64,000 nt of DNA, taken from Betaproteobacteria bacterium (GTDB lineage: Bacteria > Pseudomonadota > Gammaproteobacteria > Burkholderiales > Rhodocyclaceae). The notes below the pieces were generated by a model. The model saw only the letters and a program-made list of their open reading frames with translations, was not told where the DNA came from and did not search any database. Shown here one piece after another: positions 34,235 to 39,755 of the stretch (positions are counted from its first letter, which is position 1; every line of letters begins with the position of its first letter). Made by a program: the position numbers and the translations under genes. The stretch is from the NCBI GenBank assembly GCA_009779265.1, contig WREP01000007.1:1-64000 (forward strand), read 5' to 3'.

Positions 34235-34552
34235 TCAAACGGCGGCCAGACGCTCTACCGTGTCGGGAAACTTCTCGACCATGCGAATCAACAAGGCCGC
34301 CTGGGCATTCGGCCTGGCCCGGCCCTGTTCCCAGTTTTCCAGCGTGCGCGGATTGGTGCGCAAGTAGCGGGCGAATACCGCGCGCGACAAGTGCAGCTTT
34401 TCGCGCAGGGACAGCAATTCGTCGGCCGTTATTTCCGGCGCTCGCACGGCTTTCACCTCCGTCGTGCGCAGGGTGATCTTGCCTTCGCGCGCGGCGGCCA
34501 GAGCATCCACGCCCTCCATCAGTTCAGCGAACAGGTTGCGCTTTCTGGTCAT
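34235..34552 (-). CDS. HigA/NadS-type helix-turn-helix antitoxin
   Basis: 105 residues. The N-terminal part ([20 protein letters not shown]) is typical of antitoxins paired with RelE-like toxins. The C-terminal HTH ([19 protein letters not shown], then [16 protein letters not shown]) belongs to the Xre/NadS group. It overlaps the toxin stop by 4 bp. The order toxin first, antitoxin second is the HigBA order. It lies inside the trp gene run, 14 bp before trpG, so transcription from the trp promoter would pass through it. Confidence 0.9.
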
Positions 34553-34890
34553 TTTCGTTTCTCCAGTTCGTCTTTCAGGGCATCGGCAAAGGCGTGTCGC
34601 TCTTTGGCCGTCATGTCGTCCATTTCATCCTTGTCGTACAGAGTGAACATCCAGAACTGCCGGCCGCCAAGCCACAGGTAGTAAATGATCCGCAGCCCGC
34701 CGCGCTTGCCCTTGCCGCGCCGGGTATCGGCAAAGCGCATTTTGCGCAAACCACCCGCGTCCTTGATGACATCGCCTGTCTCCGGGTTATCCAGCAAGGT
34801 ATTTTGCAGCCCCCGGTAGCCCTCATCGTCAAGGTAATCGGCCAAGCGGCGGGAGAAGGCTGGCAACTCAACAAAGACGGCGGATTCCAT
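34549..34890 (-). CDS. RelE/HigB-type toxin
   Basis: 113 residues of the RelE/ParE superfamily: FVELPAFSRRLADYLDDEG at the start, GLRKMRFADTRRGKGKRGG in the middle (basic RNA-binding strand) and IIYYLWLGGRQFWMFTLYDK, with a helical tail MTAKERHAFADALKDELEK. Such toxins cut mRNA on ribosomes. It lies 61 bp after the trpE stop and in the same direction, so it appears inserted in the trp operon between the two anthranilate synthase subunits. Confidence 0.9.
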   Translation of the reverse strand: MESAVFVELPAFSRRLADYLDDEGYRGLQNTLLDNPETGDVIKDAGGLRKMRFADTRRGKGKRGGLRIIYYLWLGGRQFWMFTLYDKDEMDDMTAKERHAFADALKDELEKRK

Positions 34891-34951: not shown

Positions 34952-36439
34952 TCAGTCGATCCGCGTATCCAAACCCTGCTCGGCCAGTTCGGCGGCGCGC
35001 AGGACGGCGCGGGCCTTGTTGCGGGTTTCTTCCCATTCCGACTGCGGGTCGGAATCGGCGACGATGCCGGCGCCGGCCTGGACGTGCAGTTTGCCGTCCT
35101 TGAGCACGGCGGTGCGGATGGCGATGGCCAGATCCATGTCGCCGTGAAAGCCGAGATAGCCGACGGCGCCAGCGTAAATGCCGCGCTTGACCGGCTCCAG
35201 TTCGTCGATGATTTCCATCGCCCGCACCTTCGGCGCGCCGGAGACGGTGCCGGCCGGAAAGGTGGCCTTGAGCACGTCGAGCGCGGCGAGGCCCGCTTGC
35301 AGGCGGCCTTCAACATTGGAGACGATGTGCATGACGTGCGAGTAACGCTCGATAATCATGTTCTCGGTCAGCCTGACCGTGCCGATGCGGGCGACGCGGC
35401 CGCAATCGTTGCGGCCGAGGTCGAGCAGTTGCGTGTGTTCGGCGCGCTCTTTTTCGTCGGCCAGCAGTTCGCTGGCCAGCGCCGCGTCCTCTTCCGGCGT
35501 GACGCCGCGCTTTCTCGTGCCGGCAATGGGGCGGACGGTGACGCGGTCGCCTTCGAGGCGGACGAGGATTTCCGGCGAGGCGCCGACGACGTGGTAATCC
35601 TCGAAATCGAAATAGAACAGGTAGGGCGAGGGATTGAGGCTGCGCAACGCGCGGTAGAGGGCCAGCGGGCTGGCGGCGAAGGGCTTGCTCATGCGCTGCG
35701 AGAGCACGACCTGCATGACGTCGCCAGCGGTGATGTAATCCTTGGCCTTTCTCACCGCCGCCTTGAAGTCCTCCTCGCCAAAGAGCGAGGTGGCGGGGGC
35801 CGAGGCCGCCGGCTGTTCGCCGGGGATGCTGGCCGGCAGGCGCAGTTTGGCGAGCAGTTCCTTGAGGCGCGCGCGCGCTTTCTGGAAGGCGCCGGGGAAA
35901 CCCGGCTCGGCATACACGATCAGGGTCAGCTTGCCGGAGAGGTTGTCGACGACGGCGATTTCTTCCGATAGCAGAAGGCCGATGTCCGGCGTGCCGATGG
36001 CGTCCGGCTTGGCCGCCCCGGCCAGGCGGGTTTCGACGTAGCGCACGGTGTCGTAACCGAAGCAGCCGACCAGGCCGCCGCAAAAGCGCGGCAGGCCAGC
36101 GCCCGGCGCGGCGCGAAAACGCTGCATGTAGCTGCCGATGAAAGCCAGCGGATCGGCGTCATCCGCGCGCTCGGCAACGCGATTGCCGGTGAGCACCAGC
36201 ACCTGCCGGCCATTGACGACAATGCGCGTCGAGGCGGCCAGACCGATGATGGAATAGCGGCCGAAACGCTCGCCGCCCTGCACCGATTCGAGCAGATAGG
36301 AATAGTGGCCGCCGTTCTCGCCGCTGGTCAGCTTGAGGTAGATGGAAAGCGGCGTGTCGAGATCGGCGAAGGTTTCCAGCGTAACGGGAATACGGTTGTA
36401 ACCTTGCGCGGCAAGCGCGGCGAATTCGGTTTCGGTCAT
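34952..36439 (-). CDS. trpE: Anthranilate synthase large subunit
   Basis: 495 residues. Converts chorismate to anthranilate using ammonia from TrpG. The N-terminal feedback site carries [18 protein letters not shown], the LLES region that binds tryptophan. The chorismate-binding core shows [49 protein letters not shown] and [16 protein letters not shown]. The ATG at 36439 has GAGG upstream. It is preceded by a leader peptide and terminator-like hairpin, so it is probably controlled by attenuation. Confidence 0.97.
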
Positions 36440-36471
36440 GGGACGGCCTCGAAGCTAAGACTGGGAATGTG

Positions 36472-36492
36472 AAAAGTGCGCCGGCACGGCGC
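36472..36492 (-). terminator. Attenuator terminator hairpin upstream of trpE
   Basis: Read on the minus strand, GCGCCG (36492-36487), loop TGC and CGGCGC (36483-36478) form a GC-rich stem, followed after two bases by TTTT (36475-36472). It lies 12 bp past the leader peptide stop and 30-50 bp before the trpE start. An alternative pairing with the GGCGCC repeats inside the leader (36509-36525) is possible, as expected of an antiterminator. Confidence 0.7.
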
Positions 36493-36503
36493 GCGAACAG
36501 GAC

Positions 36504-36560
36504 TCAGGGGCGCCAGCGGCGCCAGCCTTGCCATTCGTTCCACAGTCGCGAGATCGTCAT
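36504..36560 (-). CDS. trpL: trp operon leader peptide (18 residues, 4 Trp)
   Basis: The reading frame is MTISRLWNEWQGWRRWRP followed by TGA, with Trp codons at positions 7, 10, 13 and 16. Its ATG (36558-36560) overlaps the gph stop codon as ATGA. No clear ribosome-binding site precedes it, so it may be translated by coupling to gph. A terminator-like hairpin with a T-run follows, then trpE. This is the structure of a ribosome-stalling attenuator: scarce charged tRNA-Trp would stall the ribosome and allow trpE expression. The known principle fits; the exact pairing is inferred. Confidence 0.88.
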   Translation of the reverse strand: MTISRLWNEWQGWRRWRP

Positions 36561-37255
36561 TTGTGCTTGAGGTCTAGGTCGGTGAGTGCCCGCCGGTGGG
36601 CGGCGAGCAGGTCGGATACTAGCGCATCGCAATCGGCGCTGTCCACCGGCCGGCCCTCGTTGTAGCCGTAGGGCACGCAGAAGACGGCGCAGCCGGCGGC
36701 GCGGGCCGCCTCGATGTCGTTTTTCGAGTCGCCGATATGCAGATTGCGCCACGGCGCAACACCGAACTGGCGGCAGGCGTAAAAAATCGGCTCCGGGTGC
36801 GGCTTCTTGTACGCCGTGGTATCGCCGGAAACGACGACAGCGAAGTAGTCGGCCAAACCCATGCGTTCGAGCAACGGCTCGGTGAACTGCGCCGGCTTGT
36901 TGGTCACCACGCCCAGCGGCAGGCCGCTCGCCCGCCAGGCGGCGAGTCCCTCCAGCACGCCCGGGTAGAGGCGCGTATGGCGACCGTTGGCCTCGGCATA
37001 ATGGCGCTGAAAGACGGCGATGGCAGCGGCCAGACGTATCGGCTTCGGCGCCCGGCCATGGGTCAGGCAGCGCTCGACCAGCACCGCCATGCCCTTGCCG
37101 ACGAAGCGACGCACTTCCTCCTCACTGCGCGGCGGCTCGCCCAGCTCGGCCAGCATCCGCCGACAGCCTTCGGCCAAGTCGGGAATGGTGTCGAGCAGGG
37201 TGCCGTCGAGATCGAAGGTGACGGAGAGAAAGTGCTGGCTCGTTGGCAAGGCCAA
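36557..37255 (-). CDS. gph: Phosphoglycolate phosphatase
   Basis: 232 residues. A HAD-superfamily enzyme that dephosphorylates 2-phosphoglycolate. The nucleophile motif is FDLDGTLLDTIPDLA (Asp at about 16 and 18). Motif II is GVVTNKPAQF, and motif III includes KKPHPEPIF and HIGDSKNDIEAARAAG. It follows rpe by 9 bp, and its stop overlaps the trp leader start, so rpe-gph-trp form one directional run, as in many proteobacteria. Confidence 0.95.
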   Translation of the reverse strand: MALPTSQHFLSVTFDLDGTLLDTIPDLAEGCRRMLAELGEPPRSEEEVRRFVGKGMAVLVERCLTHGRAPKPIRLAAAIAVFQRHYAEANGRHTRLYPGVLEGLAAWRASGLPLGVVTNKPAQFTEPLLERMGLADYFAVVVSGDTTAYKKPHPEPIFYACRQFGVAPWRNLHIGDSKNDIEAARAAGCAVFCVPYGYNEGRPVDSADCDALVSDLLAAHRRALTDLDLKHK

Positions 37256-37264
37256 TCCCTCGTC

Positions 37265-37972
37265 TTACCGAGCGGCGGACAAGCCGGCGCGCAGGGCCGC
37301 GACGATGGAATCGTAGCGATGCGGGTCGCTCTCCTTGCCGGCCCCGAAAATGGCCGAGCCAGCGACGAAGGTATCGACGCCAGCGCGGGCGATGTCGCCG
37401 ATATTGGCGGCATTGACGCCACCGTCGATTTCCAGGCGGATGCGCCGGCCGCTCTCGCGCTCATAAGCATCCAGCCTGGCCCGCGCCTGACGCGCCTTGG
37501 CCAGCGTCGCCGGAATGAACTTCTGGCCGCCGAAACCGGGGTTGACGCTCATCAGCAGCACCACGTCGAGCTTGTCCATGACGTAATCCATGTAATCGAG
37601 CGGCGTCGCCGGGTTGAAAACCAGCCCGGCCTGACAACCGGCATCGCGGATGAGCGCCAGACTGCGGTCGATGTGTTCGGAGGCTTCCGGATGAAAGGTG
37701 ATGATATTGGCGCCGGCCCTAGCGAAATCGGGGATGATGCGGTCGACCGGCTTGACCATCAGGTGCACGTCGATCGGCGCTTGGGTGCAGGGCCGGATGG
37801 CCTCGCAGACCAGCGGCCCGATGGTCAGATTGGGCACATAATGATTATCCATCACGTCGAAATGCACCCAATCGGCGCCAGCGGCGATAACGTTAGCCAC
37901 TTCCTCACCGAGTTTGGCAAAATTGGCCGACAATATGCTCGGCGCGATGACGTAATCTCCGACGACTGCCAT
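37265..37972 (-). CDS. rpe: Ribulose-phosphate 3-epimerase
   Basis: 235 residues. Interconverts ribulose-5-phosphate and xylulose-5-phosphate. The start at 37972 ([19 protein letters not shown]) has GGAG upstream. An in-frame ATG 39 codons earlier lies inside apaG on the other strand and is rejected. Metal and substrate residues are in [47 protein letters not shown] and [11 protein letters not shown]. It diverges from apaG across 37 bp. Confidence 0.97.
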
Positions 37973-38009
37973 GATGGCTCCTGCAAAAAAAGAAAGAGTT
38001 GATTGTCCC

Positions 38010-38393
38010 ATGCCCGACCGCCGCAAGCATCGTATCGAAGTCACCCCGGTCGCCCGTTTCCTTCCCGACCAGTCGAACCCTGAGCGCAACCGCTACCTCT
38101 TCGCCTACACCATCACCATCCGCAATCTCGGCGAAGTGGCGGCGCAACTGATATCGCGCCACTGGATCATCACCGACACCAACCAGACGGTACAGGAAGT
38201 ACGCGGCCTCGGCGTCGTCGGCCAGCAGCCGCTGCTGCAACCGGGCGAAAGCTTCCGCTACACCAGCGGCTCGCAACTGGCGACGCCGGTCGGCAGCATG
38301 CGCGGCAGTTACCAGATGCTGGCCGCCGACGGCACCCGCTTCGAGGCCGAGATACCCGAATTTGCGCTGGCCATGCCGAGAATGCTGCACTGA
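38010..38393 (+). CDS. apaG: ApaG (Co2+/Mg2+ efflux protein family)
   Basis: 127 residues, a small fibronectin-III-like beta protein. Family motifs are visible: [49 protein letters not shown] split over the middle, and [12 protein letters not shown]. The start is the ATG at 38010, [11 protein letters not shown]. The biochemical role is uncertain despite the name. Remnants of another gene follow it immediately. Confidence 0.95.
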
Positions 38394-38846: not shown

Positions 38847-39755
38847 ATGAAACGCACCAATGCACTGATTGTCAAAATGGCTGCTCTTGCCCTTGCGGGC
38901 GGAATGTATGGAACGGCTTCGGCTACGATAGTCGAGGGGGTCACCATGGGGGCTGGGGATTTTGTGAATGAGTTTAACAAATTTGGGGGAGTTACCGTCA
39001 CACTTCAACAGTTCTTTGACAATTCAATCTCTGGGTGGAAAGTTCTCCTTCCACAGGAGAATTCACCCTACAGAATACAGTCAATGATCTTTGATCATCA
39101 CAATATTGCTTATGACTGGAATGGCGCCTATCGTTATGGCAATGGGTTTACCACAACAAATCCCTATAATGGGCAGCATGAAAATCTCTTCATAACGCTC
39201 AAAATGTCGCCGACTATTTCCTTTAACATGTGCAATAACACTAGCTTATGCAGAGCGACGGCCAAGCTCAATTACAACGAGATCACCGGGACGACTCAAA
39301 CGGATTATAGCCCTGCTGGGAACGCTACCCTGACGGTTGGCGCAGCCTATATGTATGCCCAGTATGTTCTTGGGGCAGATTATGGCAACCCAATTAACTG
39401 GACTAATTCTCCCGCGTTTATCCAGCTGACTTATGCGGATGATAATCCGGATAGTGGGAAATGGTTCAATAGTATGAACTTTCTGCTGGATGTGAATAAT
39501 GACCCAGACTACTGGTTGGCTGCCTATGATCCGGACAAGTTTTACACGGAGATTGGGGACTACTCTGTTTTTGTGATGAACATGTACTATCCGGATAAGT
39601 CATCCATGGGGAACTTGCTTTTCCTGGCTCATATGAACCCGACGGATCCCGATCCGACCCCGGTTCCCGAACCTGCAACCTACACCATGATGCTGGCCGG
39701 TATCGGTTTGTTGGGTGCCGTTGTTCGTCGCCGCCGCAGCATGGGTCGATCCTGA
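38847..39755 (+). CDS. PEP-CTERM sorting domain protein
   Basis: 302 residues. A signal peptide (about 1-26, ending GTASA) is followed by a secreted domain rich in Asn, Tyr and Asp with one Cys pair (MCNNTSLCRA). The C-terminal sorting signal is VPEPATYTMMLAGIGLLGAV followed by RRRR. Exosortase would process it for surface or extracellular-matrix delivery. No exosortase gene is in the window. The gene is AT-richer than its neighbours. The function of the passenger domain is unknown. Confidence 0.93.
   Translation: MKRTNALIVKMAALALAGGMYGTASATIVEGVTMGAGDFVNEFNKFGGVTVTLQQFFDNSISGWKVLLPQENSPYRIQSMIFDHHNIAYDWNGAYRYGNGFTTTNPYNGQHENLFITLKMSPTISFNMCNNTSLCRATAKLNYNEITGTTQTDYSPAGNATLTVGAAYMYAQYVLGADYGNPINWTNSPAFIQLTYADDNPDSGKWFNSMNFLLDVNNDPDYWLAAYDPDKFYTEIGDYSVFVMNMYYPDKSSMGNLLFLAHMNPTDPDPTPVPEPATYTMMLAGIGLLGAVVRRRRSMGRS

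Follow-up and report, generated by a model that had tools for sequence, protein, structure and literature searches.

A probable tryptophan attenuator of trpE with a predicted promoter in the last codons of gph in a Rhodocyclaceae bacterium

The trpE gene of this Rhodocyclaceae bacterium is likely controlled by a ribosome-mediated Trp attenuator with its own σ70-type promoter, embedded in the last codons of gph, the gene upstream. Comparison with relatives points to this arrangement through a conserved leader, a promoter with codon bias, persistence in the absence of gph, and alternative RNA pairings. Codon usage in these relatives further indicates that a DNA switch has shaped the codons at the end of gph.

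The window, i.e., the whole 64-kb stretch of DNA that was analyzed, carries rpe, gph, a small frame, trpE, a two-gene toxin-antitoxin-like insert, trpG, and trpD in this order on its minus strand, with gph, rpe, trpE, trpG, and trpD identified by NCBIfam (Table 1). The insert between trpE and trpG (window 34235-34890, minus strand) comprises a RelE-like toxin and an HTH/MqsA-like antitoxin, and by eye a promoter-like stretch precedes the pair. Only the window's own locus matched the pair among the loci up to L198, of which L119-L198 come without DNA downstream of trpE. With this pair in between, trpG may no longer be under the control of the trpE attenuator. Elsewhere, a protein encoded on the plus strand (window 38847-39755) contains a PEP-CTERM sorting signal.

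Table 1 Genes, predicted promoter elements, leader, and RNA pairings of the rpe-gph-trpE region (positions in the window)
Feature	Positions	Strand	Remarks
rpe	37265-38089	minus	TIGR01163; upstream of gph on the same strand; start unsettled
gph (phosphoglycolate phosphatase)	36557-37255	minus	NCBIfam NF009695 and TIGR01449; start codon unsettled, first TTG at 37255
-35-like hexamer TGGACA	36640-36645	minus	in gph codons Val-Asp-Ser; conserved
-10-like hexamer TAGTAT	36616-36621	minus	in gph codons CTA GTA TCC; conserved
ATGA, leader start overlapping the gph stop codon	36557-36560	minus	read directly
trpL, Trp leader peptide frame MTISRLWNEWQGWRRWRP	36504-36560	minus	Trp codons 7, 10, 13, and 16
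1:2 hairpin GGCGCC-GCU-GGCGCC	36509-36523	minus	inside the leader frame; 98.4% of cells paired, 31 sequences
2:3 alternative pairing, 36514-36510 with 36492-36488	36488-36514	minus	98.7% of cells paired; 29-61% with the partner slid
3:4 hairpin (terminator-like) GCGCCG-UGC-CGGCGC	36478-36492	minus	98.7% of cells paired; -11.3 kcal/mol
UUUU run after the 3:4 hairpin	36472-36475	minus	read directly, in ACUUUUC
trpE	34952-36439	minus	TIGR00564; GAGG at 36450-36447 before the start

The small frame MTISRLWNEWQGWRRWRP reads ATG ACG ATC TCG CGA CTG TGG AAC GAA TGG CAA GGC TGG CGC CGC TGG CGC CCC TGA (minus strand, 36560-36504), TGG accounting for 4 of its 18 codons. The first-pass annotation had described a Trp-rich frame that opens as ATGA within the gph stop codon and has no clear ribosome-binding site, and both points are borne out, the second by a predicted 16S-tail binding of +0.5 kcal/mol at the leader start vs -5.9 at that of trpE. 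It had also proposed checking whether the Trp codons are conserved in relatives. Using a rule that accepts frames of 6-60 codons with at least two Trp among the last 18 and at most 330 nt before trpE, and counting identical upstream regions once, we found a leader at 23/25 loci of the genus, 89/106 of the rest of the family, 45/60 of the order, and 16/28 of the class, while shuffled sequences satisfied the rule in 10%, 14%, 18%, and 19% of cases. With at least three Trp, the counts are 22/25, 66/106, 29/60, and 4/28 (shuffled 0%, 2%, 1%, and 4%). The two-Trp rule gave 4/9 for additional loci of the order and 26/32 for loci of named relatives, the nearest of which are Azonexus and Dechloromonas. 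The trp attenuator is well supported because Trp-rich frames precede trpE far above the shuffled 10-18%, and the leader very probably acts as an on-off switch for tryptophan synthesis.

The common leader of the genus has the form M-T-x-x-x-x-W-N-E-W-x-G-W-R-x-W-R-x, or a near variant, and is mostly exactly 18 codons long; some leaders, among them those of L007 and L018, have no Trp at the codon-10 position. Other types occur in the family, for example ...WAEAWPWRPWR and ...WRGWRSWPAGH. Leader picking was mechanical, taking the most downstream start from which every Trp codon is still included, and individual distant leaders may therefore be chance finds. By the rule, 17/106 family and 15/60 order loci have no Trp-rich frame, and in L053, L056, L188, L197, and others gph runs into trpE without a leader. 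The two misses in the genus are L017, which has no leader, and L020, which the rule missed because its leader frame runs into trpE. In L020 and L083 (Dechloromonas sp. SSB2), the frame continues beyond the point where leaders normally stop and overlaps trpE by 4 nt (ATGA type), which is either genuine or due to a sequencing error. The leader of L005 has extra codons and a fifth Trp codon.

A consensus scan identified a candidate σ70-type promoter, TGGACA-18-TAGTAT, at 36645-36616, inside the last codons of gph and upstream of the leader. We discarded the idea of a distinct promoter located after gph and before the leader, as the overlapping class has no gap there. The match alone is modest (9/12 consensus positions, with 0.8 such matches expected per 2.4 kb). 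The gph codons that span it are GTG GAC AGC GCC GAT TGC GAT GCG CTA GTA TCC, and we compared the corresponding codons at 198 loci with a motif-bearing gph upstream of trpE (the sum of the types). The -10 site is written CTA GTA in 53/55 gph of the DALV type, contains ATA in 49/50 of the DAIV and 8/8 of the DGIV type, and is CTA CTA (29) or TTA CTA (1) in 30/30 of the DGLL type. Elsewhere in these genes, Leu is encoded by CTA 178 times and by TTA 197 times out of 12,125, CTA thus making up 1.5%, GTA is used for 446/9,217 Val, and ATA for 162/5,118 Ile. Read as DNA, the rare codons are TAGTAT, TGCTATAGT (an extended -10), and TACTAT. Common codons occupy the site in the DAVI (29) and DAVV (11) types, none of which come from the host family; ATA is present in 3/29 DAVI.

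The -10 forms, which were chosen after seeing the sequences, are found in 128/171 upstream regions and absent from 43/171; several of the 43 show near variants by eye, and for some the scan covered the wrong stretch, no leader having been found. The strict motif TGGACA-N18-TANNNT is present at 31/32 loci that have gph upstream and a trpE at least 84% identical, the expectation from shuffled sequences being 0.0008 per region. The one locus without it, L061, has a different final base in the -35 hexamer. Outside this set, which represents the genus and a few neighbors, the strict motif is found at 45/187 loci with gph, 3/11 with rpe next, and 1/21 others. The two hexamers keep their spacing and are selected apart from the protein, as expected of a σ70-type promoter within coding sequence. 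At L056, L188, L197, L026, and L233, gph runs into trpE, the leader is absent, and the TATAGT codons are still in gph; these loci may have kept the promoter and lost, or never gained, the attenuator.

Relatives without gph at this position separate the promoter from the protein. In the set with at least 84% trpE identity, rpe is present and gph is missing before the leader at nine loci. Eight of these keep TGGACA-18-TAGACT or TAGTAT, now in non-coding DNA, and the ninth, L017, has neither promoter nor leader. Six genomes yielded a relocated gph copy. All six retain the residues DALV, encoded by CTG with GTC, GTG, or GTT, and none has Val-Asp-Ser at the -35 site. Since the promoter persists without gph and relocated gph drops its codons, we conclude that the promoter is selected apart from the protein. 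Outside the genus, 17 genomes gave mostly distant paralogues that are of little use as controls; the promoter codons are present in none of the outside-genus copies inspected, and the DAIV copy L337 reads ATC GTC. On a quickly built trpE tree of 65 rows, in which 19/62 inner branches are weakly supported, gph presence changes three times, changes that we read as losses. Because leaders are kept in gph-less relatives, the leader does not need gph.

Sites with Shine-Dalgarno-like strength are rare at leader starts. Predicted 16S-tail binding of -4 kcal/mol or stronger is found at 7/141 leader starts, vs 28% of random positions and 123/141 trpE starts. By spacing class, these are 0/34 overlapping, 0/27 close, and 3/38, 3/37, and 1/5 other leaders. 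Thus, Shine-Dalgarno sequences are rare with or without gph overlap, and their absence here is no sign of coupling. GACCTC stands directly before the leader ATG in genus loci such as L007, L018, and L078, also where gph is gone, and by eye could pair partly with the GAGG of trpE; no counterpart was found in the other leader types inspected.

Other readings of these data have to be weighed. The rare gph codons might slow translation or serve the protein, in whose motif they lie, rather than the promoter, but the survival of the same DNA motif in non-coding DNA and its loss from all six relocated copies make this highly improbable. In the model that builds on the first-pass annotation, transcription of the trp genes would occur mainly together with rpe and gph, and the leader would need gph ribosomes that re-initiate at ATGA. 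The overlap in this genome, the lack of a Shine-Dalgarno sequence, and a spacing of -4 or -1 between gph stop and leader start in 34/141 leaders, across several leader types, are in keeping with such a model. So is the cbb3 operon of Acidithiobacillus ferrooxidans, in which cbbE, cbbZ, trpE, and trpG are reported to be co-transcribed, combining rpe and gph homologues with trpEG (PMC2942843); the word stem attenuat- is absent from the main text of that paper. However, leaders are retained at loci that have no gph, the 65-row tree shows frequent switches of spacing state (11 changes among overlapping, separate, and no leader), Shine-Dalgarno sequences are rare in every spacing class, and a promoter with codon-level conservation is located within the 3' end of gph, ahead of the leader. 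We therefore regard this model as quite unlikely. Neither the dependence of leader synthesis on gph translation nor the placement of the trp genes necessarily on an rpe-gph transcript found support, and, judged from the gph-less relatives, this does not appear to be a translationally coupled leader that needs its upstream gene. Coupling as a requirement is argued against by the leaders and promoter that survive gph absence and by the Shine-Dalgarno-poor leaders of every class.

A milder form, in which coupling acts on read-through RNA from rpe-gph, is possible. Transcripts from the gph-internal promoter and from rpe-gph read-through could pass the same attenuator, with the overlap keeping read-through under Trp control by re-initiation. 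The three genes lie on the same strand with short gaps, and tight spacing between gph stop and leader start recurs, but the overlap is not conserved and a promoter inside gph would also give tight spacing. This dual entry is conceivable, though we find it doubtful. The ATGA overlap comes and goes and appears optional. Its role would not go beyond letting ribosomes that have completed gph on a read-through transcript start again at the leader.

We examined the RNA pairings in 31 aligned sequences, out of 35 picked by leader pattern (L005, L039, L041, and L075 were left out); the pattern missed some genus members, including L061. The 1:2, 2:3, and 3:4 pairings hold in nearly all 31, as a check for alternative pairing proposed in the first-pass annotation had anticipated, with 98-99% of cells paired vs 28-61% in controls with the partner slid. 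Covariation for 1:2 and 3:4 is slight because the sequence is so constant: there is one two-sided change, in 3:4, and 38/500 shuffles score as high. For 2:3 it is nil in these sequences, all shuffles scoring as well. The leader region thus has predicted 1:2, 2:3, and 3:4 pairings that are mutually exclusive, with little covariation. Folding of the RNA, also proposed as a check, gave a mixed outcome. It recovers the 6-pair hairpin at -11.3 kcal/mol, but the energies are unexceptional, with z between -1.65 and +0.27 over five stretches. Across 140 loci, real sequences are only slightly better than shuffled ones (mean z -0.40 for downstream folding and -0.75 for pairing of leader with downstream sequence).

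The GC-rich hairpin, the TTTT, and trpE do follow one another in this genome as originally described, but the U-run near the stem is not conserved. By reading, the window's own row is alone among the 31 in having UUUU within 3 nt of the stem; in L008 and L081 it lies some 6-7 nt further on, and in L061, outside the alignment, it directly follows the stem. A hairpin with a T-run is found in some other genera (e.g., L171 and L162), and almost no hairpin follows the leader in L040, L048, and L090. By a loose criterion, 34% of the 140 loci have a hairpin plus U-run, and over these loci we found no robust terminator signature across the family. Because the U-run is unconserved, the earlier model has little backing across the clade as regards its terminator, and termination may involve Rho or another mode. 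Of the ribosome-mediated attenuation originally proposed, the leader with mutually exclusive hairpins before trpE is supported. The leader might instead act through Rho-dependent or translational attenuation. The other 30 aligned rows have no U-run directly after the hairpin, some leaders are followed by little structure, and in Pseudomonas aeruginosa intrinsic terminators are reported to account for about one fifth of mRNA 3' ends (PMC8297930). Against this stand the UUUU after a 6-pair hairpin in this genome and the hairpin with T-run in L061 and the other genera just named. We consider this alternative rather unlikely, though worth keeping in mind.

For the attenuator with a gph-internal promoter, we infer an RNA start, transcription from the promoter, translation of the leader without a Shine-Dalgarno sequence, a response to Trp, and a mode of termination, which would combine as follows. 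RNA would start near 36609; because this is within gph, the transcript would be without the gph start codon. A ribosome would start the leader at 36560, in sequence rich in A and C. When Trp-tRNA is plentiful, it would reach the leader stop and cover segment 2, so that the 3:4 hairpin forms and transcription stops before trpE. With scarce Trp-tRNA, it would stall at a Trp codon, codon 10 being the most useful, segments 2 and 3 would pair, and trpE would be transcribed. In relatives, transcription may end through Rho or at a weak hairpin.

The trpL attenuator of the E. coli trp operon likewise consists of a short leader with Trp codons and 1:2, 2:3, and 3:4 pairings, followed by the first trp gene. 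In contrast to it, the Trp codons here are spaced rather than tandem, the predicted promoter is inside an upstream coding gene, the leader start lacks a Shine-Dalgarno sequence and overlaps the stop of another gene, and the U-run is poorly conserved. Pseudomonas putida is another proteobacterium with gph ahead of trpE. Attenuation of its trpE and trpGDC was reportedly described by Olekhnovich and Gussin in 2001. A 2004 survey of proteobacterial attenuators by Vitreschak et al. may already list beta-proteobacterial trp leaders. To our knowledge, the promoters and start signals of trp leaders are little mapped beyond enterics and a few others. In the window, no Rfam family matched at gathering score, any trp leader family included, and at E up to 5 the region 36380-36720 gave nothing beyond three microRNA and lncRNA matches at chance level. 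In the trpLE(G) attenuator of Sinorhizobium meliloti, the RNA begins with the leader ATG (PMC7298713). That system shares a Trp leader, attenuation, and an SD-less leader start with ours, whereas the predicted RNA here has a 5' stretch of ~50 nt of gph codons. We found no report of a trpE promoter inside gph, or of a trp leader in the host family, in the titles and abstract openings searched in the open-licence literature.

The system would work like a classical trp attenuator, whose tested features are all found except a conserved U-run. This kind of switch is known, and we rate the promoter held in gph codons as a new arrangement. More speculatively, and in our estimation improbable as a whole, a trp promoter older than the genus may hold gph codons and even residues (Val-Asp-Ser...Ala-Leu-Val), a hold relaxed once gph moves, and read-through ribosomes may also enter the SD-less leader via the overlap with the gph stop, two transcripts thereby sharing one Trp sensor. 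The ATGA overlap and the missing ribosome-binding site warn against taking either as proof of coupling. The gph-less relatives constitute a natural experiment that splits protein from promoter constraint at single codons, and they yield a clear prediction for synonymous mutants.
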